Source: Aerophototrophica crusticola (GTDB lineage: Bacteria > Pseudomonadota > Alphaproteobacteria > Azospirillales > Azospirillaceae). From it: a DNA stretch of 32,742 nt. Within the stretch, counting starts at the first letter, position 1. The number at the start of each line of letters is the position of its first letter. Under the pieces are notes generated by a model. That model was not told where the DNA came from. It saw only the letters and a program-made list of their open reading frames with translations, and did no database searches. Below are positions 8,669-32,216 of the stretch, one piece after another. Position numbers and translations under genes: made by a program. The DNA lies in NCBI GenBank assembly GCA_001939945.1, contig MOEB01000044.1, positions 1,742 to 34,483 of the forward strand. Direction: 5' to 3'.

Positions 8669-8714
8669 CCGCCATTCCCCCCTGCGCCTGGACCGAACAT
8701 GGTTAACGCCGTGG

Positions 8715-8758: not shown

Positions 8759-8814
8759 TGGCAGGCTTGCGGGCGCATCCGCGCATTTGGCTCACGCGCC
8801 CATGCCGCTGGCTT

Positions 8815-10083: not shown

Positions 10084-10107
10084 CGTTTCCCTCCCATGGT
10101 TTGTTCT

Positions 10108-11267: not shown

Positions 11268-11271
<4 letters not shown>
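10108..11271 (-). CDS. MFS transporter inside the sugar ABC operon
   Basis: A 387-residue protein with about 12 hydrophobic helices. The loop after helix 2 has the MFS motif in the form [10 protein letters not shown]. The [13 protein letters not shown] and [10 protein letters not shown] stretches recall the YbjJ-like MFS branch. Its start overlaps the stop of the second permease (ATGA, 11268-11271), so it is an integral member of the ABC operon, sitting where an ATPase gene might be expected. It could export or import a sugar or sugar derivative related to the ABC substrate; that is inference from position only. Confidence 0.85.
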
Positions 11272-12113
<842 letters not shown>

Positions 12114-12127
12114 GGCGGGCCTTCCCC

Positions 12128-13069
12128 TCAGCGGTCGGCCGACAGCCGGACCTTGCCGGCGGTCAGCAGGATGGCGGTGATGATGCCGATCAGCAGCACC
12201 AGCAGGGTGGAGGCGGCGGACCCGAAGCCCACGTCCTGGAAGTCCACCAGCTGCTGGCGGGCATAGACGGACAGGGTGGCCGTCGCCGGGTTGCCGCCCG
12301 CCAGCACATAGGCCAGGTCGAACATGCGCAGCGCGTCCAGCGCCCTGAAGACGATGGCCACCATCAGGGCCGGGCGGATCAACGGCAGGGTGATCTGGAA
12401 GAAGGCACGGATGGGGCTCACCCCGTCCACCTTCGCCGCCTCGTAGATCTCGTGCGGCAGGGTCTGCAATGCTGCCAGGATCAGCAGTGCCATGAAGGGC
12501 GTCGTCTTCCAGACGTCCACGGCCACCATGGCCCAGAGCGACGTGGTCGGGTCGGCCAGCCAGGCGACGTTCTGGTCGATGATGCCCAGCCCTTGCAGGA
12601 CCACGTTAATGATCCCGTACAGGTCATGGTACATCCAACCCCACATCTGGGCGGAGATGACGGTGGGGATGGCCCAGGGCACCAGCACGGCGGCCCGCAG
12701 CAGGCCCCGGCCCCGGAAATGGGCGTTCAGCGCCAGGGCGATGACCATGCCGATCACCGTTTCCAGCGCCACGGACGCGCCGGCGAACAGCAGTGTCACC
12801 TTGGCCGCCTGCCACCAGGCAGGGTCCTGTAGCATGTAGACGAAGTTGGTCAGGCCGACGAACCGCGCCTCCTCCGTCCCGCCCAGGCGGGCGTCGGTGA
12901 AGCCCAGCCAGACGGTGCGGGCCAGGGGCCAGCCCGCCACCAGCAACAGGGCGGTGACCGTGGGCAATAGGAACCAGAAGGCGGCCTTGCGACGACCCTG
13001 CTCGATCCGGCCGGGTCTCGCCCGGACGACTTCCACCGCCGGCGCGGAACGCTCCGCGGCGGCGGTCAT
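12128..13069 (-). CDS. Sugar ABC transporter permease, MalF/ThuF class
   Basis: A 313-residue protein with an N-terminal helix ([20 protein letters not shown]), six helices in total, and the EAA loop at about residue 220 ([20 protein letters not shown]). The start at 13069 (MTAAAERSA) lacks a separate ribosome site; only GGGG abuts it. It overlaps the stop of a 22-codon open frame with a good ribosome site (ATGA, 13066-13069), so reinitiation is plausible. A GTG at 13147 would add 26 Gly/Arg-rich residues that do not look like family sequence. It is the first main gene of the ABC operon. Confidence 0.9.
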
Positions 13070-13134
13070 CCCCGGCCCCGCGCCAATGCCGAATCCCGGG
13101 CTGCCACGCGCCCGGCCTGCCTGCCGCGTCCCAT
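13066..13134 (-). CDS. Possible 22-residue leader peptide coupled to the ABC permease
   Basis: An ATG at 13134 follows a good ribosome site (GGGAGGG, 6 bases spacing). It opens a 22-codon frame rich in Arg, Gly and Ala, ending in a TGA that overlaps the permease start (ATGA). The layout would explain translation of the permease, which lacks its own ribosome site. It could equally be chance in GC-rich DNA. Confidence 0.35.
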   Translation of the reverse strand: MGRGRQAGRVAARDSALARGRG

Positions 13135-13331
13135 GATGCCCTCCCACCCCTTTTCACCGCCGCCTCTCGGGGCGGCGCTGTGGGACGGTAACGGTCGCCG
13201 CATGGGGGGAGTTCCTGCCGCGACCTACATCCGGCAGATGCAGACACCGGGGGCGGAACAGGCTGGCGGGGTGCCGGCGGCGCCGGGGTCGGCCCCTATC
13301 CCAGGCGCGCTCGGCAAGGAAGGGAGAGGAA

Positions 13332-17444: not shown

Positions 17445-20063
17445 TCAGTAGGTGAAGCGGACACCGCCGAAGAAGCGGCGGCCGTTCTTGAAGGCGGCGA
17501 AGGGTACGGACTTGTCGCCCAGGTACTGGTACTGGGTCTCGTCCAGCAGGTTCTGGCCCTGCAGGGTCAGGCTGATCTGCTCCGTCAGGTTGTAGCCCAG
17601 CGAGGCGTCCAGCTGGTGGTAGCTGTCGTTGGTCACCGCCGTGGCGCGGTTCACCTCGCGGAAGTACTTGCTGCGGTAGCTGTAGGTCAGCCGGGCGCTG
17701 AACAGGTCGTCCTCATAGTACGGCGTCAGGCTGACGCTGTGCTTGCTGCTGAACGGCAGGGCCACGCCCGGGTCGCTGGTCTTGCTGTCGGCGAAGGTGT
17801 AGCTGGCCTGGATGCCGAAGCCATAGGCGATGTCGCCCTGGTAGTTAAGCTCAAAGCCGCGCACCTCGGCCCCGCCGCCGTTGCGCGGGCGGGTGACCTG
17901 GTAGGTGCGGAAACCCGGACCCTGCGGGTTGGTCACCGGGTTGGTGTCGTCATTGAACAGGGTCTCCGGCGCCGTGGTCCGGACGATGTAGTTGCTGATG
18001 TCCTTGTAGAACAGGGTGGCGGAGATCAGCGTCAGCCGGTCCATGTAGTACTCGACCGACACGTCGAAGTTGCTGGCCCGGTACGGGTCCAGGTTCGGGT
18101 TGCCGCCGCTGGCGGTCAGCAGGGTGTTGTTCTGCTCCACGAAGCTGGTCAGGTCGGCATAGTTGGCCCGCGCCATGACGCGGGACGCCGCCAAGCGCAG
18201 CACCGTCTTCTGGTCCAGGTCGAAGGAGAAGTTCGCGCTGGGCAGCCAGTCATTGTAGGTCTTCTCGAACTCCACCGGCTCGATCTGGCTGGCCGGGATG
18301 ATCGGGGGCCCGAACTGGCCACCCAGGCGGTCGCGCCGGCCGCTGCTGCTCTGGTCGGTGTGGACGAAGCGCAGGCCGATGTTGCCGCGGTAGTCGTCAC
18401 CCCGGAAGTTGGCCTGGGTGTAGCCGGCCCAGATCTTCTCCTCCACCGCGAACTGGGCGGGCAGGAAGTCGAAGTAGCTCGGGTCCACGAAGCCGCTGGC
18501 GGGGCGGGAATTGAAGAAATCCTTCAGCTTGTCTTCATCCACCGTCAGCCAGTCCTTCAGGACCTGGTTGACGTCGATGCCCTTCAGGTAGCCGCTGGGG
18601 GTGTTGCCAGCGACGAAGCCGGCCAGCGGGGTGGAGGCGCCGTTGACGCGGCGGAGCTGGCTGCCCTGGGTCGTCTCATGGTCGCGGTACTTGACGCCGA
18701 ACTGGACGTCGGACAGGGCGCCGAAGTTCACGTCGAAGCCGGCATCGGCCTGCAGGTAGAACTCCTCGTCCGTGGTCGGCTGCTGGCGCAGCTGGGCGAA
18801 GCCCAGCGTGGTTCCCGCCGGGTCGGTGGGGGAGAACTGGGGCGTCACGCTGGCCAGCTCACCCGGGGCCTTGCTGATGTCGAAGCTGTAGCCGGTGAGC
18901 TGCTCGAACTCCCCGAAGAACTGCTGCTGCGTGCCGCCGGTGGAGCGGGTCTTGCCGCCCTGCACCCCGAAGCGCCAGGTGTCGTCGGTCCAGTCCGCCT
19001 TGAAGTCGGCGGCATAGGTCTCGATCTCGGACTCGCGGGCGATGGCGTCCAGCAGCATCAGGCCCGCGTTCGGGGACGGGGCGTTGGCATAAGACCCGCC
19101 GACAACCACGCCGTTCTTGATGACCGCGTTGTTGGGCAGGCCGCGGAAGTTATTGAAGTAATAGCGGCTCTGGTTGAAGTTGTCGTAGGTGCCCTTGACG
19201 TACAGGCCGGTGGCGTTGATCTCCAGCTTCTCCACCGGCTTGGCCTGCACGCCGATGGTGCCGCCGGTGCGCTCCCGCTTCTGGGTGAACAGGGCGGAGT
19301 TGATGACGTTGGGCATCAGCGCCGTGCCGCCGCCGGGCAGGTCCACCGTGGGGTAGCCCAGGGTCTCGAAGCCGTCGCGGCGCAGGTCCTGCTCCTGGTG
19401 TGTGGCGGACAGCAGGATGCCGAAGGTCTCCGCCTCGTTCTTCCAGGACACCAGGCCCGACGCGTTGGGGGATCCCTTGTCCGCCCGGTCGTTGTAGCCG
19501 TACTCGATGCTGGCGTTCAGGGTCAGCGGCTTCAGGTCCAGCGGGCGGCGGGTGTGCAGGATGACCGTGCCGCCGACGCTGCCCTCGTCGATGCGGGCCT
19601 CGGGGCTCTTGTACACCTCCAGGCGGCCGACCACCTCGGGCGCCAGGATGGTGTAGTTGAAGGTGCGGCCGGGCGCATCCAGGATGAACCAATCGGTGGA
19701 GGCCACCGTCTGGCCGTTCAGCAGGGTGCGGTTCAGGGCCGGGTCGGTGCCGCGGATGGCCACCCGCTCACCCTCGCCGAAGTCGCGGTCCACCTGGATG
19801 CCGGGGATGTGCGACAGGCTCTCCGCGACGTTCTTATCCGGGAACTTGCCGATGTCCTCCGCCGTGATGGCGTCGACGATGGCGTTGGCGTCGCGCTTCG
19901 TCTCGATGGACTGGACCAGGCTGCCGCGGATGCCGGTGACGATGATCTCATCCAACGCCTCACCCCCGCCGGCCGGGGCTCCCTGCGCAAACGCGGCCCC
20001 GGTGATGCAGAGCAGGGCAACGGCGCTGACCGACCCCCTCAGGAAAACCCCCGTCGAACCCAT
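17445..20063 (-). CDS. TonB-dependent receptor, TIGR01782 (Xanthomonas/Caulobacter) type
   Basis: An 872-residue outer-membrane receptor with a signal peptide at 1-26 and a TonB box near residue 38 (DEIIVTGIRGS). The plug shows the TIGR01782 signature (TKRDANAIVDAITAEDIGKF, then LSHIPGIQVDRDFGEGERVA, FNYTILAPEVVGRLEVYKSP). A 22-strand-type barrel ends in FFGGVRFTY. The start at 20063 has a strong ribosome site (GGAGGGAC); longer in-frame starts upstream lack a signal peptide. This receptor class commonly serves carbohydrate uptake, including GlcNAc and chitooligomers in Caulobacter. Here it lies next to GlcNAc catabolic genes, which supports that role by context. It is convergent with the DUF1697 gene. 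Confidence 0.92.
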   Translation of the reverse strand: MGSTGVFLRGSVSAVALLCITGAAFAQGAPAGGGEALDEIIVTGIRGSLVQSIETKRDANAIVDAITAEDIGKFPDKNVAESLSHIPGIQVDRDFGEGERVAIRGTDPALNRTLLNGQTVASTDWFILDAPGRTFNYTILAPEVVGRLEVYKSPEARIDEGSVGGTVILHTRRPLDLKPLTLNASIEYGYNDRADKGSPNASGLVSWKNEAETFGILLSATHQEQDLRRDGFETLGYPTVDLPGGGTALMPNVINSALFTQKRERTGGTIGVQAKPVEKLEINATGLYVKGTYDNFNQSRYYFNNFRGLPNNAVIKNGVVVGGSYANAPSPNAGLMLLDAIARESEIETYAADFKADWTDDTWRFGVQGGKTRSTGGTQQQFFGEFEQLTGYSFDISKAPGELASVTPQFSPTDPAGTTLGFAQLRQQPTTDEEFYLQADAGFDVNFGALSDVQFGVKYRDHETTQGSQLRRVNGASTPLAGFVAGNTPSGYLKGIDVNQVLKDWLTVDEDKLKDFFNSRPASGFVDPSYFDFLPAQFAVEEKIWAGYTQANFRGDDYRGNIGLRFVHTDQSSSGRRDRLGGQFGPPIIPASQIEPVEFEKTYNDWLPSANFSFDLDQKTVLRLAASRVMARANYADLTSFVEQNNTLLTASGGNPNLDPYRASNFDVSVEYYMDRLTLISATLFYKDISNYIVRTTAPETLFNDDTNPVTNPQGPGFRTYQVTRPRNGGGAEVRGFELNYQGDIAYGFGIQASYTFADSKTSDPGVALPFSSKHSVSLTPYYEDDLFSARLTYSYRSKYFREVNRATAVTNDSYHQLDASLGYNLTEQISLTLQGQNLLDETQYQYLGDKSVPFAAFKNGRRFFGGVRFTY

Positions 20064-20225
20064 GCTGTCCCTCCGTGTCCACTGCTTGCTGTTTGTGGGC
20101 CGTTCGCCGGCCAACGCGGTGGGGGAAGGAAAGCGGATATGCGGGAAACCGAAAGGCGAGTTCCGGCAGAACGCCGAAAATGACGGAAAATCACCGGCCA
20201 TTTCTTTGCTTTTCTTGGGTGCCGT

Positions 20226-20257: not shown

Positions 20258-21733
20258 CTAGATCCGTTCCGCCTGCCGCAGCTGCAGCTTCAGGCGGTTC
20301 AGCGACGCGGCCAGGGCGTCGCGCTCGGGCGTGGCCTCGTTGCAGTGGCGCAGCACGTATTCCGCCGTGCGCACCACGTCGCGCCAGCGGGGGTTCCGCG
20401 GCAGGGTCTCCACCAGCAGGTACTTGTCCAGGGTGCGGGTCTGGAGGGAGCTGCGGTCCATGTAGACCCGCCAGATGCCGCTTTCCTCCGCCAGCTCCAC
20501 CTTCCCCTTGCGCCGGGCCTTCTGCCAGTAGTCCAGGGTCAGGGTCATCACGTCCACCAGGGCGCGGCGGTAGCCCTCGTCCGCGTCCAGGGCTGCCTGC
20601 TCCGGGTCGGGCGGCGGGGCGTGCGACTCGTCCGCCAGGGCGGCGGGATGCGGGTCGGCCTCCTCCGGCGCGGGCGGCGGCAACTCAGGCTCGGGCGCCG
20701 CCGCGGGCGGCGGCAGGGGGGCGGGGGCCGCGGCGGCGATGGGCACGGGCAGGGGAACCGCGGCCTCCCGCCGGCGTCGCAGCAGCGGGAAAGCCAAGGC
20801 CGCCAGGGCCAGCAGCATTAGGCCGGCCATATAATAGGTGTAGGGCCCTGCCAGGACCGCGTCGTCGGCCACCACCAGGAAGGGCCAGCCCGCGTCCGGC
20901 ACGGTGAAGGGGCCGTGGGCCGTTTCACCGGCCCCGGGGGCCTGGCCGCCCAGGGGCTTTCCCTGCCCGTCCAGCAACAGGAAGCGGATGCCCGGCACGG
21001 CGATGCCCGCCAGCCGCCGCTCCACCGCCGGCAGCGGCAGGCGGAAGGCCACAACCCCCTCCACCGTTCCATGGCGCACGATGGGCCGGCCCAACAGGAT
21101 GCCGAAGCCGTCGTCCAGCCGTTCCGGCTCCGTCACCACCAGCACCTGGTCTGGCTGTTCCGCCTGTTGCAGGCGGGCGTTGACGGCGCGGACCAAGCCG
21201 GCCAGGGGGGTGTTGCGGTGCTTCTGGTCCCGCAGGTCGGCGGCGAAGGCCGCATCCTTGCGCAGGGAATAGACGACGCGGCCGAACCGGTCCACCAGGT
21301 ACATGTCGTCGAACACCGACGCGGCGATCATGCCCACGAAGCTGGGGTGGAACCGCTCATGCACCGCGTCATAGGCCAGCAGGGCCGGGGCCAGGTCGGC
21401 CGGCCGGTCCTGCCCCGGCAAATAGGCGCCGCGCAACAGGGCCGCCGCCCGCTCCGGGTCCGGGGAGATCTGGGCGAAGGCCGGGGCGAAGCCGTAATAG
21501 CGCCCGACACCATAGCCGATGAAGCTGGTCCCGGCGAAGGCCGCCGTCTGTGCCCGGGCGAACTCCAGCAAGGTCGCCAAGTCGCGCTTGGCCGCGCCCC
21601 GCGCCTGTTCCACCTGGACCGAGACGCCGCGCCCAATGGAAAGCGCCAGCACCACCAAGGAGAGGACGAGCACGACCAGGACCGGCCCCTGTGAGGACAG
21701 GACTCTCCACCAGCCTTGTCTTTGCCCGACCAC
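20258..21733 (-). CDS. Cache-type membrane sensor with an unrecognised cytoplasmic domain
   Basis: About 491 residues. The layout is a transmembrane helix at about 17-36, a periplasmic region at about 40-295, a second helix at about 300-319, a Pro/Ala-rich linker at about 325-380 and a C-terminal helical domain at about 386-490. The periplasmic part contains MYLVDRFGRVVYSLRKDAAF, a Cache-like stretch seen in chemoreceptors. There is no HAMP, kinase, GGDEF or chemotaxis signalling domain. The C-terminal domain (LDYWQKARRKGKVELAEESG, then IWRVYMDRSSLQTRTLDKYL) is unknown to me. GTG 21733 is preferred over TTG 21736 because GGAGG lies 8 bases upstream. It is divergent from nagZ, upstream of the TonB receptor, and may sense the imported oligosaccharide or its binding protein. 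Confidence 0.75.
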   Translation of the reverse strand: MVGQRQGWWRVLSSQGPVLVVLVLSLVVLALSIGRGVSVQVEQARGAAKRDLATLLEFARAQTAAFAGTSFIGYGVGRYYGFAPAFAQISPDPERAAALLRGAYLPGQDRPADLAPALLAYDAVHERFHPSFVGMIAASVFDDMYLVDRFGRVVYSLRKDAAFAADLRDQKHRNTPLAGLVRAVNARLQQAEQPDQVLVVTEPERLDDGFGILLGRPIVRHGTVEGVVAFRLPLPAVERRLAGIAVPGIRFLLLDGQGKPLGGQAPGAGETAHGPFTVPDAGWPFLVVADDAVLAGPYTYYMAGLMLLALAALAFPLLRRRREAAVPLPVPIAAAAPAPLPPPAAAPEPELPPPAPEEADPHPAALADESHAPPPDPEQAALDADEGYRRALVDVMTLTLDYWQKARRKGKVELAEESGIWRVYMDRSSLQTRTLDKYLLVETLPRNPRWRDVVRTAEYVLRHCNEATPERDALAASLNRLKLQLRQAERI

Positions 21734-21775
21734 CAAAAAAGCCTCCCCGCCCCGTGCCCCTTGCCATTATTCTGG

Positions 21776-21794: not shown

Positions 21795-21942
21795 GCGCTT
21801 TTATTGGCCGCCCCGGCAACGGGCAGGGGGAAGCATATCGGTAAATTCGTTGTTGCGCAAAGGGGGCCTTGATCGGGCCGGTCGGCGTGGGGCAGGGCTG
21901 GGGAAGCGACACGCCACCCCATCCAGGCCGGGACCGGAAACC

Positions 21943-22962
21943 ATGACCAGCGCCAGACGCCCCCTCGCCGTGATCTTCGGCACGCCCGGGACGGAGCTGA
22001 CCGCCGACCAGCGGGCCTTCTTCCGCGACGCCGACCCGCTGGGCCTGATCCTGTTCAAGCGCAACTGCGAAAGCCCGGACCAGGTGCGCCGCCTCTGCGC
22101 CCAGTTCCGCGACGCGGTGGGCCGGGCCGACGCCCCCATCCTGGTGGACCACGAAGGGGGCGAGCACCAGCGGCTGGACCCGCCGGTGTGGCCGGCCTTC
22201 CCCTCCCCCGCCGCCTTCGGCCGGGTTTATGCCCGGGACATGGCCCAGGGGCTGGAGGCGGCGCGGCTGGGCGGCCTGGGAATCGGCCAGGTGTTGGCCG
22301 CCCATGGCATCAGCGTGGACTGCGCGCCCCTGCTGGACGTCCCGGTGGCCGGCGCCGACCCGGTGATCGGCGAACGCGCCTTCGCGTCGGACCCGGAGGT
22401 GGTGGCCCTGCTGGGCGGTGCCTTCGTGGACGGGCTGCTGGCCGCCGGCGTCGCCCCCGTGGTCAAGCACATCCCCGGCCACGGCCGCGCCGCGGTGGAC
22501 AGCCACAAGGCGCGGCCGGTGGTGGAGACGAGCCTGGAAGAGCTGGACGGCACGGATTTCCTGCCCTTCCGCCGGCTGGCGGACTGCCCCTGGGCCATGG
22601 TGGCCCACGTGGTCTATGCGGCGGTGGACCCGGAGCGGCCGGCCACCACCTCCGCCGCCGTGATCGAGCAGGTGGTCCGGCAACGCATCGGCTATCCCGG
22701 CGTGCTGGTATCGGACTGCATCTGGATGGACAGCCTGGTGGGCACCCTGGCGGAGCGCTGCCGCGACGTGCTGGCCGCCGGCATGGATGTGGCCCTGGCC
22801 AGCCATGGCGACGTGGAGACCTGGACCGACATCGCCGCCCAGTCCCGCCCCCTGACGGAAGCGGCCTGGGCCCGGCTGGAGGCCGCGCGGGTGCCCGTGC
22901 CCGCCGATCCGGGGGATGTGGCGGACACGCTGGCGCGGCTCGGCGCCCTGTTGAAGGGCTGA
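21943..22962 (+). CDS. nagZ: Beta-N-acetylhexosaminidase, glycoside hydrolase family 3 (NagZ)
   Basis: A 339-residue cytoplasmic enzyme without a signal peptide; NagZ length is normal. Motifs: LGLILFKRNCES near residue 33, DHEGGEHQRL at 69-78 (the usual form is DQEGGRVQRL, so H replaces Q), and KHIPGHGRAAVDSHKARP at 175-192 with the Asp-His dyad of the acid/base loop. The nucleophile is D258 in LVSDCIWMDSL (usually SDDL-M). Family role: release of terminal GlcNAc from muropeptides or chitooligosaccharides. Here it lies between the sensor and an oligosaccharide importer, so it may act on imported chitooligomers as well as cell-wall fragments. Confidence 0.92.
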   Translation: MTSARRPLAVIFGTPGTELTADQRAFFRDADPLGLILFKRNCESPDQVRRLCAQFRDAVGRADAPILVDHEGGEHQRLDPPVWPAFPSPAAFGRVYARDMAQGLEAARLGGLGIGQVLAAHGISVDCAPLLDVPVAGADPVIGERAFASDPEVVALLGGAFVDGLLAAGVAPVVKHIPGHGRAAVDSHKARPVVETSLEELDGTDFLPFRRLADCPWAMVAHVVYAAVDPERPATTSAAVIEQVVRQRIGYPGVLVSDCIWMDSLVGTLAERCRDVLAAGMDVALASHGDVETWTDIAAQSRPLTEAAWARLEAARVPVPADPGDVADTLARLGALLKG

Positions 22963-23102: not shown

Positions 23103-24794
23103 ATGCGGAAACCCTTGGCAGCGCTGTTGGCAGGCCTCACGGCCCTGGCCGCCGTGCCCCTGGCACAGGCCCAGGGCCAAGCCACGGTGCCGGGCCGGTC
23201 AACCCTGACCGTGGTGGCCAGCCTGTCGACGGGCTGGGTGCGCAACTTCAACCCGTTCAACGAGACGACGCGCCTGCACAGCACCCGCGATTTCGTCTAT
23301 GAGCCGCTGGTGGTCTTCAACACCCAGCAGGGCGGGCGGCCCGAATACCGGCTGGCGACGGCCTACGACTTCTCCGACGACCTCCGCACCCTGACCTTCA
23401 CCCTGCGCCCGGGCGTGAAGTGGTCGGACGGGCAGCCCTTCACGGCCGCCGACGTGGCCTTCACCTTCGACCTGCTGCGCCGGAACCGGGCCCTGGACAG
23501 CTTCGACCTGTCGGAGCGCATCGCCGCGGTGGAGACGCCGGACCCGCTGACCGTGGTCTTCCGCCTGCGCAAGGTGAACGCCAACATGGCGTATGAGATC
23601 GTGCGCGTGCCCATTGTGGCCAAGCATGTCTGGTCAAAGGTGGCCAACCCCGTCAGCTTCACCAACGACATCCCGGTGGGCACCGGCCCGATGACGGAGG
23701 TGGCGCGCTTCACCTCCCAGCTCTACGTGCAGTGCCGCAACCCGCATTACTGGGACGCCGGGAACCTGAAGGTGGACTGCATGAGCTTCCCGCAGCTCTC
23801 CACCAACGACCAGCTCCTGACCGCGGCCGCTGCCGGCAAGGTGGACTGGTTCGGCGCCTTCATCCCGGACATCGAGCGCACCTACGTGGCCGCCGACCCG
23901 GCCCACCACCGCTACTGGTTTCCGCCCGGTGGCACGGTGTCGGTGAACATCAATTTGGACAGCCCCACCGCCGGCAACCGCGCCGCCTTCCGCGACGTGA
24001 AGTTCCGCCGCGCCGTCAGCATGGCCGTGGACCGCCGCGCCATCGTGGACATCGCCGGCTACGGCTACCCGGTGGTCAACGAATACGCCTCCGGCCTGGG
24101 CCGCACCTACCATGAGTGGGTGAACCAGGAAGCCGAACGCTCCTTCGGTCGCTTCGCCAAGTTCGACCAAGCCGCCGCCCGGGCCCTGCTGGCGGAGAGC
24201 GGCTACCGCGACATGGACGGCGACGGCTTCGTGGACAACCCGGACGGCACGCCCATCCGCTTCACCATCCTGGCCCCCAACGGCTGGACCGACTGGGTCA
24301 ACACCACCCAGCTGGTGGCCGAGGGGCTGAACGCCATCGGCATCGACGCCCGCGTCAGCACGCCGGAGCCCGCGGCCTGGACCCAGAAGCTGATCACCGG
24401 CGACTATGACATGGCCATCAACGGCCTGCTGGCGGGGGAGACGCCGCACCGCAGCTTCGACAGCGGCTTCCATTCCCGCTTCGTGGGCAAGACCCGCTGG
24501 GCCAGTACCCGCTTCGTGGACCCCGGGCTGGACGCGGCGCTGGACGCCTTCACCGCCACCATCGACCCCGCTGCCCAGCGCAAGGCCATGGACACGGTGC
24601 AGATGATCCTGGCGGCCAACATGCCCACCGTGCCGCTGTTCAGCAACCCGGTCTGGTACGAATACAACACCAGCCGCTTCAAGGGCTGGTTCAACGCCGA
24701 CAACCCCCGCGGCAAGCCCGACGTGTTCGACGGCACGCCGGAACGCCTGCTGCACCTCTTGTCGCTGGAGCCCGTGCGCCCCGGCGACAGCTGA
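23103..24794 (+). CDS. Chitooligosaccharide-type ABC substrate-binding protein (SBP family 5)
   Basis: A 563-residue periplasmic protein with a signal peptide at 1-23 (LAALAAVPLAQA). It is a family-5 (Opp/Dpp class) binding protein. Long stretches resemble the Vibrio chitin-oligosaccharide-binding protein as I remember it: WVRNFNPFNETTRLHSTRDF, YEPLVVFN, PIVAKHVWSKVANPVSFTND, QLYVQCRNPHYWDAGNLKVD, FIPDIERTYVAADPAHH, and the end motif YNTSRFKGWFNADNPRGKPD followed by PERLLHLLSLEPV. This points to (GlcNAc)n rather than peptide binding. It heads the five-gene transporter operon after a gap holding a TGACG repeat. In Vibrio the homologue also controls a sensor kinase, relevant to the Cache protein nearby. 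Confidence 0.87.
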   Translation: MRKPLAALLAGLTALAAVPLAQAQGQATVPGRSTLTVVASLSTGWVRNFNPFNETTRLHSTRDFVYEPLVVFNTQQGGRPEYRLATAYDFSDDLRTLTFTLRPGVKWSDGQPFTAADVAFTFDLLRRNRALDSFDLSERIAAVETPDPLTVVFRLRKVNANMAYEIVRVPIVAKHVWSKVANPVSFTNDIPVGTGPMTEVARFTSQLYVQCRNPHYWDAGNLKVDCMSFPQLSTNDQLLTAAAAGKVDWFGAFIPDIERTYVAADPAHHRYWFPPGGTVSVNINLDSPTAGNRAAFRDVKFRRAVSMAVDRRAIVDIAGYGYPVVNEYASGLGRTYHEWVNQEAERSFGRFAKFDQAAARALLAESGYRDMDGDGFVDNPDGTPIRFTILAPNGWTDWVNTTQLVAEGLNAIGIDARVSTPEPAAWTQKLITGDYDMAINGLLAGETPHRSFDSGFHSRFVGKTRWASTRFVDPGLDAALDAFTATIDPAAQRKAMDTVQMILAANMPTVPLFSNPVWYEYNTSRFKGWFNADNPRGKPDVFDGTPERLLHLLSLEPVRPGDS

Positions 24795-24868: not shown

Positions 24869-25846
24869 ATGCCCTTCCTTGCCCGACGCCTCGGGTTCTA
24901 CGTGGCCGCCTTCCTGGTGGCCGCCACCTTCAACTTCCTGCTGCCACGGCTGCTGCCCGGCAACCCGGTGGACGTGATGTTCGCCCAGGCCGGCACCGCC
25001 CTGCCGCCAGAAAGCCTGGAGGCGCTGAAGTCCACCTTCGGCTTCCTGGATGAGCCGCTGCCCGTGCAGTACCTGCGCTACCTGGCCAGCGTCTTCACCT
25101 GGGATTTGGGCCTGTCGGTGAAGTTCCACCCCCTGACGGTGGGGGAGGTGCTGTGGGCCTCCCTGCCCTGGACGCTGTTGCTGGTGCTGGCCTCCGCCGC
25201 CCTGGCCTTCGGGCTTGGCACCCTGGGCGGCATCGCCGCGGCCTGGCGGCGGGGCGGCTGGCTGGACAGCACCCTGGCGCCGGCGGCCCTGGTGCTGCAG
25301 GCCGTGCCGCCGCTGGTCACGTCGCTCCTCGCCCTGTCGCTCTTCGCCGTCACGCTGAAGTGGCTGCCCACCGGCTATGCCTGGGAACCCATGCTCGACC
25401 TGGGCTGGACGTGGGAAAGCATCGCCAGCGTCGCCACCCATGCGGTGCTGCCGGTCACCACCCTGGCCCTGGCCCAGGTGGGCGGCTACCTGGTCACCAT
25501 GCGTAACAGCATGATCAACCTGCTGGGGGAGGACTACATCACCCTGGGGATCGCCAAGGGCCTGACGGAAAGCCGCCTGCGCCACGCCTATGCCGCGCGC
25601 AACGCCCTGCTCCCCTCCGTCACCAGCCTTGCCATGACGCTGGGCGCCGTGTTCGGCGGGGCGCTGGTGACGGAGGTGGTCTTCAACTACCCGGGCCTGG
25701 GCTATACCCTGTACCAGGGCATCACGGCGCGGGATTACCCGCTGGTCCAGGGCCAGTTGCTGGTGATGACGCTGGCCATGCTGGTGGCCAACTTCGCCGC
25801 CGACCTGGCCGCCTTCGCCCTCGACCCCCGTCTGCGGAGGGGCTGA
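24869..25846 (+). CDS. Opp/Dpp-class ABC permease (first subunit)
   Basis: A 325-residue inner-membrane protein of the DppB type. The N-terminal helix is followed by PRLLPGNPVDVMFAQAG, the usual conserved opening, then a periplasmic loop, then five helices. The EAA loop is seen at about residues 228-247 (LGIAKGLTESRLRHAYAARN), with the trailing FNYPGLGYTLYQGITARDYP. It is 74 bases after the binding-protein gene and 3 bases before the second permease. With the chitooligosaccharide-type binding protein it most likely imports (GlcNAc)n. Confidence 0.92.
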   Translation: MPFLARRLGFYVAAFLVAATFNFLLPRLLPGNPVDVMFAQAGTALPPESLEALKSTFGFLDEPLPVQYLRYLASVFTWDLGLSVKFHPLTVGEVLWASLPWTLLLVLASAALAFGLGTLGGIAAAWRRGGWLDSTLAPAALVLQAVPPLVTSLLALSLFAVTLKWLPTGYAWEPMLDLGWTWESIASVATHAVLPVTTLALAQVGGYLVTMRNSMINLLGEDYITLGIAKGLTESRLRHAYAARNALLPSVTSLAMTLGAVFGGALVTEVVFNYPGLGYTLYQGITARDYPLVQGQLLVMTLAMLVANFAADLAAFALDPRLRRG

Positions 25847-25849: not shown

Positions 25850-26728
25850 ATGCTGCGCACCCTGCTCGCCAACCCCAAGGCCGCCGTCGGCGCCGTGATC
25901 GTGGGCGTGTTCCTGCTGCTGGCCGTGTTCGGCCCCTGGATCGCCCCCGCCAACCCCAACCAGCGCGTGGCCGCCCCCCACCAGCCGCCCAGCGCGGAGC
26001 ATGTGCTGGGCAGCACCCGGATGGGCCGCGACGTGCTGAGCCAGACCATCCACGGCACCCGCACCAGCCTGCTGGTGGGCTTCTCTGCCGGCCTGCTGGT
26101 CACCATCATCGGCGTGGCAGTGGGCGTCACCGCCGGGTACGCCGGTGGCCGGGTGGATGAGGGGCTGAACCTCGCCACCAACATCGTGCTGGTCATCCCC
26201 AACCTGCCGCTGATGCTGGTCCTGGCCAGCTTCATCGGCCAGGCTGGCCCCTTCGTCATCGCCGCCATCATCGGCCTGACCAGCTGGGGCTGGGCCGCCC
26301 GCGTCGTCCGCGCGCAGACGCTGAGCCTGCGCCAGCGGGACTATGTCCTGGCGGCGGAACTGCTGGGGGAGCCCGCCTGGCGCATCGTGCTGGTGGAGCT
26401 GCTGCCCAACTTGACCAGCATCATCGGCTTCACCTTCATCGGCAGCGTGCTCTACGCCGTGACGACGGAGGCGACGCTGGAGTTCCTCGGCCTCGGCGAC
26501 CCCCTCGCCGTGTCCTGGGGCACCATGCTGTACCATGCGCAGAGCACCTCCGCCCTGCTGGTGGGCGCGTGGTGGGAGATCGCGGCCCCGGGCCTCGCCC
26601 TGGTCATCTTCGGCGCCGGCCTGTCCCTGCTGAACTTCGCGCTGGATGAGGTGGCGAATCCCCGCCTGCGGACCCTGCGGGTGCCCAAGGCGGTGATGAA
26701 GGCCGCCCTGAGCGGGAGGACGGCATGA
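25850..26728 (+). CDS. Opp/Dpp-class ABC permease (second subunit)
   Basis: A 292-residue DppC-type permease. Features are LGSTRMGRDVLSQTIHGTRT near residue 50, a family hallmark, followed by helices, the EAA loop at about 160-180 (QRDYVLAAELLGEPAWRIVL), and EATLEFLGLGDPLAVSWGTM. It pairs with the upstream permease. Its stop overlaps the start of the first ATPase gene (ATGA, 26725-26728), so the genes are tightly coupled. Confidence 0.93.
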   Translation: MLRTLLANPKAAVGAVIVGVFLLLAVFGPWIAPANPNQRVAAPHQPPSAEHVLGSTRMGRDVLSQTIHGTRTSLLVGFSAGLLVTIIGVAVGVTAGYAGGRVDEGLNLATNIVLVIPNLPLMLVLASFIGQAGPFVIAAIIGLTSWGWAARVVRAQTLSLRQRDYVLAAELLGEPAWRIVLVELLPNLTSIIGFTFIGSVLYAVTTEATLEFLGLGDPLAVSWGTMLYHAQSTSALLVGAWWEIAAPGLALVIFGAGLSLLNFALDEVANPRLRTLRVPKAVMKAALSGRTA

Positions 26729-27546
26729 GCACGGTACCCCTGCTGTCCGTCCGCGACCTCTGCGTCGATTACGCCACCGGCACCAAGCTGGTCCGCGCCG
26801 CGGACCGGGTCAGCTTCGACCTCGCCCAGGGGGAGGTGATGGGCTTGGCCGGCGAGTCAGGCTCCGGCAAGAGCACCGTCGCCTTCGCCATCGCCCGGCT
26901 GCACAAGCCGCCCGCCTTCGTCACTGGCGGCAGCGTCACCCTGGACGGCACCGACGTGCTGGCGTTGAAGGGCGAGGAGCTACGGCAGTGGCGCTGGCGC
27001 GACCTGTCCGTGGTGTTGCAGAGCGCCATGAACGCCCTGAATCCCCTGCTGACGGTGGAGGCGCAGTTCCGCGACCTGTTCCACGCCCACGGCGTGCGCG
27101 ACAAGGCGGAGGTGCGGGAGCGCAGCGCCGAGCTGCTGCGGCTGGTGGGCATCGCGCCGGACCGGCTGGGCGACTGGCCCCACACCTTCAGCGGCGGCAT
27201 GCGCCAGCGGCTGGTCATCGCCATGGCCCTGGCCCTGCGGCCCAAGCTCATCGTCATGGACGAGCCCACCACCGCCCTGGACGTGGTGGTGCAGCGGGAG
27301 ATCCTGGAGCAGGTGGCGGAGCTGCGCGCCAAGTTCGGCTTCGCCGTCCTGTTCATCACCCACGACCTGGCCCTGATGAGCCAGTTCTGCGACCGGGTCG
27401 GCATCATGCTGAAGGGGGAGCTGGTGGAGCAGGGCACCCCGGCCGAGCTGCTGGCCCGGCCCCGCCACCCCTATACCAAGCGCCTCTGGGACAGCCTGCC
27501 CCGGTTGCACCCCGATACCCCAGCCCGCACCGGGACCGCGCCATGA
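26725..27546 (+). CDS. Opp/Dpp-class ABC transporter ATPase (DppD type)
   Basis: A 273-residue ATPase. Walker A is at 43-51 (GESGSGKST), the Q-loop at Q99 (VVLQSAMNALNPLLT), the signature at 155-159 (FSGGM in place of LSGGQ, common in DppD), Walker B with catalytic Glu at 175-180 (LIVMDE), and the switch His in THDLALMS. The C-terminal RHPYTKRLWDSLP is the usual Opp-family extension. It overlaps the flanking genes by 4 bases on both sides. Confidence 0.93.
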   Translation: MSTVPLLSVRDLCVDYATGTKLVRAADRVSFDLAQGEVMGLAGESGSGKSTVAFAIARLHKPPAFVTGGSVTLDGTDVLALKGEELRQWRWRDLSVVLQSAMNALNPLLTVEAQFRDLFHAHGVRDKAEVRERSAELLRLVGIAPDRLGDWPHTFSGGMRQRLVIAMALALRPKLIVMDEPTTALDVVVQREILEQVAELRAKFGFAVLFITHDLALMSQFCDRVGIMLKGELVEQGTPAELLARPRHPYTKRLWDSLPRLHPDTPARTGTAP

Positions 27547-28454
27547 GCCAGACTGCCGACACGCCCGTGCTGGAGGTGCGGGACCTGACCATGCGCTTCC
27601 CGGGCCAGGAATTCCCCAGCCTGGACCGCGCCTCCTTCGCCCTGCACCGCGGCCGGGCCCTGGCCCTGGTGGGGGAGTCCGGCAGCGGCAAGAGCACCTG
27701 CGCCAAGCTGCTGACCCATGTGCTGGCCGCCACGTCGGGCCAAGTGCTGTTCGGCGGCCGGGACGTGACCCGCCTGAACGGTCGGGCGGACCAGCTCGCC
27801 TACCGCCGCCAGGTCCAGATGGTGTTCCAGGACCCCTTCGCCTCCCTGAACCCGGCGCACACCATCCGCCACCACCTGGTGCGCCCCCTGGCCCTGCACC
27901 GGCCGGACCTGCCATCCCAGGACCGCGCGGCGGAGGCGGCGCGGCTGCTGGAGGGGGTCGGCCTGGACCCGGAGGCCACCCTGCCCAAATACCCGCATGA
28001 GCTGAGCGGCGGCCAGCGCCAGCGGGTGAACCTGGCCCGCGCCCTGGCGGTGGGCCCGTCCGTGCTGGTGGCGGACGAGCCCACCAGCATGCTGGACGTC
28101 AGCCTGCGCCTGTCGGTGCTGGAGACCTTCCGCCGGTTGAAGGCCGAGCGCGGCATCGCCCTGCTCTACATCACCCACGACATCGCCACCGCCCGCCATG
28201 TGGCGGAGGACGTGGCCGTGCTCTACCGGGGCCGGATCGTGGAGAGAGGACCTGTGGACGCCGTCATCGACCGACCGCAGCACCCCTACACCCGCCTGTT
28301 GCTGTCGGCCGTGCCGGAGGTGGGCCGTCCCCTCGCCGCCGACGGCGGCATCCTGGCGCGGGCGGAGGCGGTCCGCCGGGCCAGCGCCTCCGCCGGGGAC
28401 CTGCGGGAAGTGGCGCCCGGCCACCTTGTCCGCGACTGCCTGTTGCCGGCATGA
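27543..28454 (+). CDS. Opp/Dpp-class ABC transporter ATPase (DppF type)
   Basis: A 303-residue ATPase. Walker A is at 44-52 (GESGSGKST), the Q-loop at FQDPFASLNPAHTI, the signature LSGGQRQR at 154-161, Walker B at 174-179 (VLVADE), the D-loop SMLD and the switch His in THDIATA. The C-terminal HPYTRLLLSAVPEV is followed by a tail of about 40 residues. It completes the transporter operon, so this system has both its ATPases, unlike the sugar importer at 8815-13069. It is convergent with the GNAT gene, 17 bases between stops. Confidence 0.93.
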   Translation: MSQTADTPVLEVRDLTMRFPGQEFPSLDRASFALHRGRALALVGESGSGKSTCAKLLTHVLAATSGQVLFGGRDVTRLNGRADQLAYRRQVQMVFQDPFASLNPAHTIRHHLVRPLALHRPDLPSQDRAAEAARLLEGVGLDPEATLPKYPHELSGGQRQRVNLARALAVGPSVLVADEPTSMLDVSLRLSVLETFRRLKAERGIALLYITHDIATARHVAEDVAVLYRGRIVERGPVDAVIDRPQHPYTRLLLSAVPEVGRPLAADGGILARAEAVRRASASAGDLREVAPGHLVRDCLLPA

Positions 28455-28471: not shown

Positions 28472-28933
28472 TCAGCGCGCCGTCAGCATGCCACGGTAGA
28501 GGCCGGGCTCGGAGCCCGGGATCTCCATGGCCCCGCAGGCCTTCTTGTAGAACTCCACCGGCCCCGCCCCGCCGATCACGGCATAGGCATAGCCGTCCGC
28601 CGCCATGGCCCGCAGCGCATGCAGCAGCAGCGCCTTGCCCAGCCCGAGGCCCCGCGCCTCCGGCCCCACCCCGGTCGGGCCGAACAGCCCCTTGGCCGTG
28701 GCGTCATAGCAGGCGAAGCCCAGCAGGTCGTCGCCCATGGTGGCGACCAGGATGCGCGGCGGGGTCCCTGCGAAGGCGGCAGCCGCCTCCCCCCGCCATC
28801 CCTTGCCGAACCGCTCCCCCACCCATTCCAGCACCCGCTCCCGCTCCGGCGCCAGGGCCCGGCGGACGGTGACGTCCAGCGGCAGGGCCGGCAAGTCGGC
28901 GGGCAGGTCATAAAGCTTGACCAGCAGGTCCAT
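28472..28933 (-). CDS. GNAT-family N-acetyltransferase
   Basis: A 153-residue protein with the GNAT acetyl-CoA site at about residues 86-106 (TGVGPEARGLGLGKALLLHA; the R/Q-x-x-G-x-G/A loop is RGLGLG), a preceding strand (DDLLGFACYDAT) and the C-terminal motif AVIGGAGPVEFYKKACGAME. Substrate cannot be told from sequence. It sits between the oligosaccharide importer and the GlcNAc catabolic genes but on the other strand, with a good ribosome site (GGAGGGAG). An N-acetyl step on amino sugars is an idea from context only; it could be unrelated. Confidence 0.85.
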   Translation of the reverse strand: MDLLVKLYDLPADLPALPLDVTVRRALAPERERVLEWVGERFGKGWRGEAAAAFAGTPPRILVATMGDDLLGFACYDATAKGLFGPTGVGPEARGLGLGKALLLHALRAMAADGYAYAVIGGAGPVEFYKKACGAMEIPGSEPGLYRGMLTAR

Positions 28934-28999
28934 GGGCGTGCTCCCTCCGTTTGTTACGAGATCGATACTACATTTGCGGGAAGAGGCAAGCGCGTTGTT

Positions 29000-29121
29000 C
29001 CCCCTCTCCCCACCGGGGAGAGGGTCGGGGTGAGGGGGGCTCCCCGCCGCACCGACTCCAAGCCGTCCCCTGCTCCCGGCACCCCCTCACCCCTAACCCT
29101 CTCCCCGGGGGGGAGAGGGGG
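29000..29121. repeat. Pair of inverted dispersed repeats ahead of the fused kinase/deaminase gene
   Basis: A block of about 39 bases (29000-29038, CCCCCTCTCCCC...GGGGAGAGGGTCGGGGTGAGG pattern) recurs inverted at 29082-29121 with few changes. About 43 bases lie between, and each block has its own small CCCTCTCCCC/GGGGAGAGGG stem. It resembles the common intergenic CCCTCTCCCC repeats of GC-rich proteobacteria. The right copy ends 2 bases before the ribosome site (AAAGGAGG) of the gene at 29137. Confidence 0.65.
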
Positions 29122-29136
29122 AGAAAGGAGGCCCCA

Positions 29137-31062
29137 ATGACCTGGCTCCTCGGCATCGACGGCGGCGGCACGCGCTGCCGGGCCCGGCTGACGGACGCCG
29201 GCGGGCAAATCCTGGGCGAGGGGCTGGGCGGGCCGGCCAACATCCGGCTGGGCTTGGCAACCGCCTGGTCCGGCATCATGCAAGCGGTGGACGCGGCCCT
29301 GGCCGCCGCGGGGCTGGACCGGTCGATTTTGGACCGGACACGGATCGGTCTCGGTCTTGCAGGTATCGTTACGGATGCGGACGGGGTTTCGATTTCGAAA
29401 GTCGCCCCCTTGCGCTTCGCCGCCGTCGCGGCGGTCAGCGACGCCCACACCGCCTGCCTGGGCGCCACGGGTGGGGCGGACGGGGCCATCCTGATCACCG
29501 GCACCGGCAGCCAGGGCTTCGCGCTGGTGGGCGGCACCAGCCACGCCATCGGGGGCTACGGCTTCCCCGCCTCCGACCAGGGCAGCGGCGCCTGGATCGG
29601 GCGGGAGGCGGTGCGCGCGGCCCTGCTGGCCCATGACGGCCTTGCCCCCCTCGGGCCCCTGACCCGCGCCGTGCTGGACGGGCTGGGCGGTGGCCCGGCG
29701 GAGGTGGTGCCCTGGTCCTTCGCGGCCAAGCCCGCCGACTATGCCGCCCTGGCGCCCCTGGTGCTGGAGCATGCGGGCAAGGGCGACGAAGCCGCCGCCA
29801 CGATCCTGCGCCGCGCCGCCGACGACCTGGCCGCCATGGCCCGCCGCCTGAGGGAACTGGGCGCCCCCACCGTGTCCCTTGTCGGCGGCCTTTCCACCCC
29901 CCTCCTCCCCTGGTTGCCGGACGACATCCGCCGGGCCCTCGCCCCACCCAAGGGCGACGCCATGGACGGCGCCCTGATCCTGGCCCGCCGGGCCGCCCCC
30001 CTTGCCGAGGCCCAAATGCCCTACGCCCCCGACATCGCGCCCTTGCCCCTGATGGCCCAGGAGGCGGCGGAGTCCCCCGCCGTCGCGGCCCGCCAGATGG
30101 AGCGCTGCGGCCCCCTGTTCCGCGATCTGGGTGCCCGGCTGCGGGCACTGAACCCAAGCGTGGTCGTCACCTGCGCCCGCGGCAGCAGCGACCATGCCGC
30201 CAGCTACGGCAAGTACCTGATCGAGACGGCCCTCGGCCTGCCCGTGGCCTCCGTCGGGCCGTCGGTGGTGTCGCTCTATGACACGCCGTTGAAGCTGGAC
30301 GGCGCCCTGTTCATCGCTGTCTCCCAATCCGGCAAGAGCCCGGACCTGCTGCGCCTGACGGAGTCCGCCAAGGCGGGCGGCGCGTTGACCGTTGCCTTCG
30401 TCAATGACGAGGCCTCCCCCCTGGCCGGCCTCTGCGACGTGTTCATCCCGCTCTGCGCCGGGCCGGAGCGCAGCGTGGCCGCCACCAAGAGCTATGTCGC
30501 CAGCCTGCTGGCCTTCCTGCAACTCACCGCCCACTGGTCAGACAGCGCCGACCTGCACGCCGCGGTGGCCGCGGCCCCGGGGGCCCTATCCAAGGCCGCC
30601 GCGCTGGACTGGCACCCGGCCCTGTCACGCCTTGTGTCCGCCACCGGCCTGTATGTCATCGGCCGCGGCCTGGGCATGGGCGTCGCGCAGGAAATGGCGC
30701 TGAAGTGCAAGGAGACCTGCCGCCTGCATGCGGAGGCCTTCAGCGCGGCGGAGGTGATCCATGGCCCCCTGGCCCTGGTGGGGCCCGGCTTCCCGGTCCT
30801 GGCCCTGAGCCAGCATGACCAGACGCGGGAGCCCACGGCACAGGCCGCGGCCCGCATGGCCGGATTGGGGGCCGACGTGCTAAGCACAGACCCGGGTGTT
30901 CCGGGCGCCACGGCCCTGCCCGTGGTGGCTGGGCTGCCGCCGGAGTTGGAGCCGATGGCGGCGGTGCTGTCCTTCTACCTGGCCATCCACCGGATCTCCG
31001 CCGCGCGCGGCCTGGACCCGGACGTGCCGGCCAACCTGCGCAAGGTGACGGAGACGATCTGA
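29137..31062 (+). CDS. Fusion of N-acetylglucosamine kinase and SIS-type glucosamine-6-phosphate deaminase
   Basis: 641 residues with two full catalytic modules. Residues 1-285 form a BadF/BadG/BcrA/BcrD-type sugar kinase: phosphate loop GIDGGGTRCRARL at 6-18, likely catalytic D102 (SDAHTACLGA), second phosphate loop GTGS at 122-125, GSGAWIGREA at 149-158, adenosine motif VGGLSTPLLPWLP near 250. Residues 303-641 form a NagB-II/GlmS-like SIS protein: CARGSSDHAASYGKYLIE at 346-363, SQSGKSPD at 396-403, and KCKETCRLHAEAFSAAEVIH at 523-542 with the conserved Glu and His. It ends with DPDVPANLRKVTETI. Known steps: GlcNAc to GlcNAc-6-P, and GlcN-6-P to Fru-6-P plus ammonia. The step between is NagA, encoded next with a 1-base overlap. 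ATG 29137 follows AAAGGAGG. The linker is about 18 residues and no stop or frameshift is seen. Confidence 0.9.
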   Translation: MTWLLGIDGGGTRCRARLTDAGGQILGEGLGGPANIRLGLATAWSGIMQAVDAALAAAGLDRSILDRTRIGLGLAGIVTDADGVSISKVAPLRFAAVAAVSDAHTACLGATGGADGAILITGTGSQGFALVGGTSHAIGGYGFPASDQGSGAWIGREAVRAALLAHDGLAPLGPLTRAVLDGLGGGPAEVVPWSFAAKPADYAALAPLVLEHAGKGDEAAATILRRAADDLAAMARRLRELGAPTVSLVGGLSTPLLPWLPDDIRRALAPPKGDAMDGALILARRAAPLAEAQMPYAPDIAPLPLMAQEAAESPAVAARQMERCGPLFRDLGARLRALNPSVVVTCARGSSDHAASYGKYLIETALGLPVASVGPSVVSLYDTPLKLDGALFIAVSQSGKSPDLLRLTESAKAGGALTVAFVNDEASPLAGLCDVFIPLCAGPERSVAATKSYVASLLAFLQLTAHWSDSADLHAAVAAAPGALSKAAALDWHPALSRLVSATGLYVIGRGLGMGVAQEMALKCKETCRLHAEAFSAAEVIHGPLALVGPGFPVLALSQHDQTREPTAQAAARMAGLGADVLSTDPGVPGATALPVVAGLPPELEPMAAVLSFYLAIHRISAARGLDPDVPANLRKVTETI

Positions 31063-32216
31063 TGCGGCAGTTCCTGGCAGGCGGCCGGGTCTTCACCGGC
31101 GACACGATCCTGGAGGGCCACGGCGTCCTGCTGGAGGACGACCGCATCGCCGCGGTGCTGCCGGAGGAGGAGGCTCCTGCCGGCGCGGCGCACGTGACGC
31201 TGCCGGAACATACCCTGCTGGCCCCCGGCTTCCTGGACACGCAGGTCAATGGCGGCGGCGGGGTGCTGTTCAACGACACGCCGACGGTGGAAGGCGCGCT
31301 CGCCATCGCCCGGGCCCACCGGCGCTTCGGCACCACGGGGCTGCTGCCCACCTTCATCACCGACCATGCCGACGGCATGCGCCGCGCGGCGGACGCGGCC
31401 GCCGAGGCGGCTGCCAGCCCGGGCAGCGGGGTCGTCGGCCTGCACCTGGAAGGCCCCTTCCTGAACCGGGAGCGGCGGGGCGTGCACAAGGCGGAGTTCG
31501 TCCGCGCGCCCACGGATGCCGACCTGGACTTCCTCTGCGCCCTGCCCGCCCGCTTCCCGCAGGGCCGGGTGCTGCTGTCCCTGGCGCCGGAGGTAGTCGC
31601 CGACACGGACATCGCCCGGCTGGCCGCCGCCGGAGTGGTGGTGGCCGGCGCCCACTCGGCAGCCTCGTTCGATCGGACAGGGCAGGCCATCGCCGCGGGC
31701 CTGTCGGGCTTCACCCACCTGTTCAACGCCATGCCGCCGATCCAGAACCGGGAGCCGGGCATCGCCCTGGCGGCCATGACCGACCCCGGCACCGCCTGCG
31801 GGATCATCGCCGACGGCATCCATGTCCACCCGGCCCTGCTGCGCGCGGCCCTGGCGGCCAAGCCAGCGGACAAGCTGTTCCTGGTCACCGACGCCATGCC
31901 GCCCACCGGCACGGACGTGACCAGCTTTGCCCTGTATGGGGAGACCATCCACCGCCGGGACGGCCGGCTGGTGACGGACGCGGGCGTGCTGGCCGGGGCG
32001 GACATCGACATGGCCCAGGCCTTGCGCAACGCCATCCGCCTGCTGGGCCTGCCGCTGGAGCGGGCGTTGCGCATGGCAAGCCTTTATCCCGCCCGGTTCC
32101 TGGGGTTGGAGCGGCGATACGGCCGCCTTTCCGCCGGGACCGCGGCCAACCTGGTGCTGCTGTCCGCCGACCTCTCCGTCCTCGCCACCTGGGTGGCCGG
32201 GCGGCGGGAGGGGTGA
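31062..32216 (+). CDS. nagA: N-acetylglucosamine-6-phosphate deacetylase
   Basis: A 384-residue amidohydrolase. Motifs: APGFLDTQVNGGGGVLF at 54-70 (the NagA form in which the usual HxH is replaced by Gln and Asn), metal Glu E130 in LHLEGPFLN, H198 in AGAHSA, H219 in FTHLFNAMPP, substrate loop DGIHVHP at 251-257, and catalytic D277 in LVTDAMPPTG. The C-terminus has the usual ERALRMASLYPARFLGLERR. It deacetylates GlcNAc-6-P in the cytoplasm, between the two reactions of the upstream fused enzyme. The start overlaps that gene's stop by one base (TGATG), which means strong coupling. Confidence 0.95.
   Translation: MRQFLAGGRVFTGDTILEGHGVLLEDDRIAAVLPEEEAPAGAAHVTLPEHTLLAPGFLDTQVNGGGGVLFNDTPTVEGALAIARAHRRFGTTGLLPTFITDHADGMRRAADAAAEAAASPGSGVVGLHLEGPFLNRERRGVHKAEFVRAPTDADLDFLCALPARFPQGRVLLSLAPEVVADTDIARLAAAGVVVAGAHSAASFDRTGQAIAAGLSGFTHLFNAMPPIQNREPGIALAAMTDPGTACGIIADGIHVHPALLRAALAAKPADKLFLVTDAMPPTGTDVTSFALYGETIHRRDGRLVTDAGVLAGADIDMAQALRNAIRLLGLPLERALRMASLYPARFLGLERRYGRLSAGTAANLVLLSADLSVLATWVAGRREG

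Follow-up and report, generated by a model that had tools for sequence, protein, structure and literature searches.

Can the first and the third step of N-acetylglucosamine (GlcNAc) breakdown be encoded as one protein, and how could such a protein have come about? The question is raised by a stretch of 32,742 nt from Aerophototrophica crusticola (the window), in which a single frame appears to join a GlcNAc kinase (NagK) to a glucosamine-6-phosphate (GlcN-6-phosphate) deaminase of the SIS type (NagB-II). We know of no earlier enzyme with these two steps on one chain. Searches of the open PMC library listed no paper that describes the fusion. Judging from the sequence, we consider it probable that the fusion is genuine, that it encodes a working bifunctional NagK/NagB-II which arose from a nagK-(gntR/nagQ)-nagB-nagA operon, and that it mainly equalises steps 1 and 3.

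Domain content, key residues and gene neighbourhood

The gene (Table 1) starts at ATG 29137, with AAAGGAGG 5 nt 5′ of the ATG, and runs through 641 codons to TGA 31060-31062. No stop lies between the modules, and the motifs DGGGT (residues 8-12), GTGS (122-125), SQSGKSPD (396-403), KCKET (523-527) and EVIHG (539-543) are found where the preliminary description had placed them in a single frame. A mechanical ORF list extends the frame 5′ to TTG 28951 (703 aa); homology begins at about ATG 29137. Pfam matches are BcrAD_BadFG (PF01869, residues 5-253, 124.1 bits, above the gathering cut-off of 31.5) and SIS (PF01380, in two stretches, the best at 344-464 with 97.8 bits, above the gathering cut-off of 25); NCBIfam matches are NagK_SO3507 (NF046058, residues 4-286, 241.8 bits) and NagB_SO3506 (NF046059, residues 305-641, 332.9 bits). 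These matches are far beyond chance and agree with the enzyme types that had been proposed, a GlcNAc-type kinase and an SIS-type deaminase. The proposal that both halves are complete also holds: each NCBIfam profile is covered nearly whole, and the ends seen in separate homologues are present. Separate kinases end between the last conserved block itself and about 20 residues beyond it, separate SIS proteins have a short variable start followed by a conserved MAxEAAE-like block, and the fused protein has both of these ends. Judged by its domains, the gene is two complete proteins joined end to end.

The closest solved relative of residues 3-288 is 1zc6, whose annotation reads probable GlcNAc kinase; solved relatives in the kinase family also include 2e2n (a hexokinase) and 8zo3 (a MurNAc/GlcNAc kinase). 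The roles of the kinase residues that we checked are known from human NAGK. D8-T12 are present, and D8, G9, G10, D102, G122-S125, D147 and S150 are invariant among the 10 kinases compared; position 126, adjoining GTGS, varies among relatives. D102 aligns with human NAGK D107, the catalytic base. The SIS residues checked, whose roles are known from E. coli GlmS, were S350, S351, S396-S398, S401, V447, K525, E526, H542 and K636. E. coli GlmS S303, S347, Q348, S349, V399, K487, E488, H504 and K603 have identical counterparts among them, and S350 and S401 are serines where GlmS has T302 and T352, as they are in all 11 separate SIS proteins compared. E526, H542 and K636 match the catalytic GlmS residues E488, H504 and K603, and S396-Q397-S398 match S347-Q348-S349 of the phosphate site. 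All catalytic residues examined are kept in both halves. The SIS half shares its fold and catalytic residues with the isomerase domain of GlmS but lacks the glutaminase domain, and it scores 332.9 bits as NagB-II versus 149.7 bits as GlmS (NCBIfam). Solved relatives of residues 304-641 are 7kqa, 3fj1, 3hba and 8eol, with Shewanella NagB-II entries among them. TM-scores (target) are 0.91-0.92 for 7kqa, which is titled GlcN-6-phosphate deaminase of Stenotrophomonas maltophilia in one listing and named FecR in another, and 0.92-0.94 for 8eym.

Neither half reaches the equivalog cut-off of its NCBIfam model (370 for NF046058, 430 for NF046059), which counts against a working bifunctional enzyme. 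Separate kinases of three family relatives likewise stay below 370 (206.6, 213 and 242.7 bits), as do the separate SIS proteins of loci L074, L076 and L069 below 430 (327.1, 334.8 and 368.4 bits), whereas a gammaproteobacterial pair (L064, order nagK-nagB-nagA) exceeds both cut-offs (438.1 for NagK, 546.1 for NagB). The cut-offs therefore seem to follow the branch around Shewanella, after whose SO3507 (NagK) and SO3506 (NagB-II) the models are named. Shewanella has the same two enzyme families in the order nagK-nagB-II-nagA (PMC3223726, PMC2996990), and PMC2996990 reports that both activities were confirmed in vitro. Its genes are separate and come with a LacI-type NagR, whereas those of the window are fused.

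The fused gene lies in a GlcNAc cluster with the order NagZ-type GH3, Opp-type importer, nagK::nagB-II, nagA, in keeping with the GlcNAc catabolism that the preliminary description had assigned to it. The GH3 gene and the five-part importer are 5′ of the fused gene on the same strand, with an opposite-strand GNAT gene in between. At the 3′ end, nagA starts at 31062, so that the one-base overlap that had been noted is indeed present (TGATG at 31060). From the protein families and the gene order, the cluster probably takes up oligosaccharides or cell-wall fragments that contain GlcNAc, releases the GlcNAc and converts it to fructose-6-phosphate. The kinase half, whose family and neighbours point to GlcNAc as its substrate, would form GlcNAc-6-phosphate from GlcNAc and ATP, the separate NagA would remove the acetyl group, and the SIS half would convert GlcN-6-phosphate to fructose-6-phosphate and ammonia.

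Table 1. Positions of the features discussed (window coordinates unless another locus is named).
Feature	Position	Strand	Basis or remark
nagK::nagB-II fused gene, 641 aa	29137..31062	+	domains, profiles, solved relatives, AlphaFold2 model
Kinase half, residues 1-288 (BcrAD_BadFG / NagK type); DGGGT 8-12, D102, GTGS 122-125, D147	29137..30000	+	Pfam, NCBIfam, structure search, alignment
Linker, residues 289-303; 290-300 predicted disordered (pLDDT < 50)	30001..30045	+	alignment with separate genes, AlphaFold2
Possible leftover nagB-II start: GAGG 30007-30010, 5 nt, ATG 30016-30018 (Met294)	30007..30018	+	read from sequence; function inferred
SIS / NagB-II half, residues 304-641; S396-Q397-S398, K525, E526, H542, K636	30046..31059	+	Pfam, NCBIfam, structure search, alignment
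nagA, GlcNAc-6-phosphate deacetylase	31062..32216	+	TIGR00221 294.7 bits, cut-off 225.65
GH3, NagZ-type beta-N-acetylhexosaminidase	21850..22962	+	NF003740 210.2 bits, cut-off 207; TTG start maybe not the true one
SBP_bac_5 solute-binding protein, Opp-type importer	23103..24794	+	Pfam and match in relatives
OppB-type permease	24869..25846	+	Pfam and match in relatives
OppC-type permease	25850..26728	+	Pfam and match in relatives
OppD-type ATPase	26725..27546	+	Pfam and match in relatives
OppF-type ATPase	27528..28454	+	frame open from 26988; query/matched part starts at 27528
GNAT acetyltransferase, between importer and nagK	28472..28933	-	68% identical gene 5′ of nagK in G067
TonB-dependent receptor, divergent	17445..20201	-	35-39% identical receptors near four Nitrospirillum-side nag loci
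Long divergent GlmS frames	G067:C1:2383099-2384799 (L120:9140-12703); L119:7509-10910; L122:8549-11929		profile search

Separate relatives and the origin of the fusion

An unbroken match over both halves occurs in one of 82 Azospirillaceae genomes and in one of the 11 of the genus, among the matches listed; it is the window's own. The gene-order search of the family drew the same 82 genomes. Samples of the class (1/385) and the phylum (1/398) again returned the window's genome only, and two gammaproteobacterial samples returned no unbroken fusion (0/369 and 0/394); these wider samples were scored under strict E-value limits with at most three candidates per genome, so that divergent or reversed fusions could be missed, and all samples, that of the family included, overlap. 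The other matches to both halves in the phylum and gammaproteobacterial samples all contain stops. Among plasmids, 404 records matched. In 25 of them a single place accounted for 80% or more of the query, and no match among the 40 listed spans both halves in one piece; seven stretches of viral contigs matched a pattern, none a relative. The six Nitrospirillum/Azospirillum loci that came from a contig scan all have nagK and nagB-II as separate genes. Within these samples, the survey for fusions that the preliminary description had called for yielded none beyond the source genome, and its idea of a lineage marker was not borne out; the fusion is a species-level oddity.

That nagK and nagB-II are normally separate genes, as had been stated, is supported by all 30 loci that carry both on one strand. 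These are part of 36 loci with a usable kinase match, from which kinase matches of <200 residues and frames cut by the end of a stretch were left out; the other six have a kinase without a full SIS gene. Thirteen of the 36 repeat a place already included, and two of the six kinase-only loci are the same place as another. The two genes overlap by 4 nt or lie 12-46 nt or 769-858 nt apart. Nitrospirillum L074 (G059) and L080 (G065) have the same genes in the same order as the window's cluster, GH3-SBP-OppBCDF-nagK-nagB-nagA, with identities of 58-59% (kinase), 71% (SIS), 66-67% (NagA), 63% (GH3) and 68-76% (importer proteins), but there 34 nt divide nagK from nagB-II, which are separate genes in different frames, and no GNAT gene was matched. 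In L074 the gap opens with a stub led by an ATG (MTTHPDIATQEPS), which in our reading bears some likeness to the beginning of the GntR gene of G064.

Genomes of the same genus share the pathway genes in another arrangement. G067, G070, G069 and G073 have nagK-gntR-nagB-nagA, with the 780-858 nt between nagK and nagB-II occupied by a GntR-type gene 95.7-100% identical to that of G067; G074 carries it too and is cut off after gntR. Unlike the window's cluster, G067 gave no match to an Opp-type importer gene in the 20 kb examined. In all five genomes the GntR-type gene is directly 3′ of nagK; four of these loci have nagB-II on its other side, and the fifth (L047) stops short of nagB-II. Among 18 loci searched, the G067 GntR protein was found in 10 (the five of the genus, 95.7-100%; two stretches of one place in G064, 66.7%; three from other families, 65-68%) and was absent from eight, including Nitrospirillum-type L010-L012, L074 and L080 and same-genus L041. 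Neither the window's genome (best 45.1 bits) nor G066 (none at 1e-10) has a close copy. NagQ is described as a GntR regulator of GlcNAc use in alphaproteobacteria in PMC5343134; by our own assignment, the same-genus gene appears to be of the NagQ type. A triple fusion suggested by 904-residue frames in G067 and G070 was rejected, as stops and the separate GntR gene lie between.

G066, of the same genus, has the kinase (69%) and NagA (79%) closest to those of the window, yet its nagK and nagA lack an SIS gene between them (G066:C7, L041:4476-6636). No deaminase was recognised in G066, its one PF01182 match also looking like 6-phosphogluconolactonase, and the organism may salvage GlcNAc to GlcN-6-phosphate without further breakdown. 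In the trees, the fused kinase half pairs with that of G066 (93/90, below the starred level of the tool), and the SIS half belongs to a 19-row group (96/93) that also contains rows from Nitrospirillum, the same genus and other families, within which it is sister to all others. Since the other clusters of the genus (G067 and kin) group with neither half, the trees lend no support to simple vertical descent from nagK-gntR-nagB-nagA; an older duplication or transfer in the history of the halves is possible. A simple path would start from an ancestral nagK-(gntR/nagQ)-nagB-nagA operon. The regulator gene would have been lost first, nagK and nagB-II would then have come into contact, and the nagK stop would have disappeared by substitution or in the deletion that took out the regulator, with a short, flexible linker as the result; this order of events for the window's genome is our inference.

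Alternative readings of the fused gene

The junction itself could mislead. If a base error in the draft had removed a stop or a frameshift, the organism would have two genes like its relatives. The assembly is a draft of 328 contigs, the window ends at the end of its contig, and no other family genome has the fusion among the matches listed. A run of six C (29996-30001) stands at the start of the linker, where one base fewer would end the kinase frame at the TGA within TGATG 30050-30054, and a single base error there is possible. However, when codons 289-306 are read in the fused frame, G or C occupies 16 of the 18 third positions, and a home-made test, uncalibrated on known errors, found no start-less segment among 125 coding segments in 157,504 bases (11 stretches) of the window's genome, nor among 195 in 280,000 bases (14 stretches) of G067. 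We regard such an artefact as quite unlikely. A tentative idea, which would hold alongside a bifunctional enzyme, is that ribosomes also start at ATG 30016, the old nagB start, and make free NagB-II beside the fused protein. GAGG lies 5 nt before this ATG, and Met294 sits where separate NagB-II proteins begin, with a short stretch of variable sequence between the start and the conserved block that they share; such a GAGG is nevertheless weak evidence in GC-rich DNA, and this second product is a real possibility but on balance less likely than not. The preceding codon 293 (30013-30015) is CAA, one transition from TAA. In a set of 22 window genes, CAA makes up 22 of 8037 codons and TAA is the stop of one gene; a TAA-to-CAA change as the origin of the fusion is only suggestive.

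Glucosamine, MurNAc or GalNAc, and not GlcNAc, could be the main substrate of the kinase half. The family relatives hexokinase 2e2n and MurNAc/GlcNAc kinase 8zo3, the unreached cut-off of NF046058 and Vibrio GspK, a glucosamine kinase of the same family, would allow it, but the 10 NCBIfam matches of the fused protein include no kinase model besides NagK, 1zc6 is the best solved relative, and nagA, NagB-II and the NagZ-type GH3 are the neighbours; a different main substrate is improbable. Still less probable is that the fusion serves as the scaffold of a metabolon in which NagK, NagA and NagB channel intermediates or sense flux. The joined enzymes do stand at the two ends of the pathway, and the nagA gene shares one base with the fused gene, yet steps 1 and 3 are not consecutive and the relatives manage without a fusion. 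The structure model is no more favourable. AlphaFold2 (18-row alignment) gave a mean pLDDT of 89.8, at least 90 at 461 of 641 residues and below 50 at 142-146, 290-300 and 638-641, with a pTM of 0.59; the domains are confidently modelled, but the pTM leaves the relative placement of the halves unfixed across a predicted disordered linker of about 15 residues. The direct channelling suggested earlier thus found no support in the model, and is unlikely because the separate NagA works between the two steps. A true bifunctional kinase/deaminase in which the two halves control one another or keep NagA between them also deserves very little credence.

For the bifunctional enzyme that we prefer, the main effect would be equal output of steps 1 and 3 from one ribosome-binding site, with passive tethering of the halves. 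The dN/dS against relatives, 0.35-0.69 in a rough count that takes no account of the strong GC bias, counts against it, as does the absence of the fusion from any second genome; the fusion may be nearly neutral. The enzymes are already known and the pathway is unchanged, so the fusion is a modest and so far one-off variation. It also illustrates cleanly how two adjacent operon genes can turn into a single protein, and its relatives display candidate stages of that path (regulator between, regulator lost, genes touching, genes fused). It would offer a cheap test of whether joining non-consecutive enzymes alters flux.

Other deaminases, GlmS and flanking regions

The window's genome has one match to the fused protein and one PF01182 match, the latter between genes that we read as G6P-dehydrogenase-like and Edd-like. 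With such neighbours, the PF01182 proteins of this genome and of G066 were rejected as classical NagB and are most likely 6-phosphogluconolactonase, which leaves the fused SIS half as the only deaminase recognised in the window's genome.

A profile search found no GlmS above cut-off in this genome, and 23 of the 82 Azospirillaceae genomes have none above the TIGR01135 cut-off. In 19 of these 23, an open frame of 1131-1220 residues matches GlmS from position 61-65 (193-212.5 bits). Two examples (P0002, P0003) start with MCGIAGF/MCGVAGF, match GlmS only from residue ~247 and continue ~300 residues past the match; a long, divergent GlmS seems to replace the normal one. The window's genome holds two pieces (G000:C279:27733-27897 and G000:C322:7988-8152) with only the last ~55 residues of the long GlmS, 69-71% identical to P0003, each ending 2 bases from a contig end. 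Probably a duplicated long GlmS gene was broken by assembly, its remainder lying in assembly gaps. The SIS half was rejected as a stand-in for an absent GlmS, given these C-terminal pieces and the long GlmS of several family genera, the window's included. A match on contig C110 reads, in our view, as the amidophosphoribosyltransferase PurF.

Beside the TonB receptor, a divergent gene (20258-21736, minus strand) encodes a conserved 492-residue protein, 50-56% identical in L074, L075 and L080 (Nitrospirillum-type genus). It has a weak dCache_1 match (E 0.011, below cut-off), its C-terminal part (389-483) resembles PDB 7kpo, called a response regulator (E 9.3e-31), and it is perhaps a sensor for the GlcNAc cluster. 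Between the GNAT gene and nagK (28999-29122) lies a 41-nt inverted repeat, 83% complementary, possibly a dispersed repeat, possibly an element that resembles a terminator. With up to 3 mismatches allowed, a 23-base piece of one arm matched nowhere else in the window. A transposase helix-turn-helix (PF01527, 32221-32469) lies just 3′ of nagA, near the contig end. On the minus strand, a 924-residue frame (5901-8675) has its listed molybdopterin-binding matches from residue 489 onwards; its first part looks unlike protein and may reflect a wrong start or a broken frame. A LamB porin, an SBP_bac_1 solute-binding protein, an MFS protein and two ABC permeases (3729-13147, minus strand) probably form a second sugar-uptake cluster.
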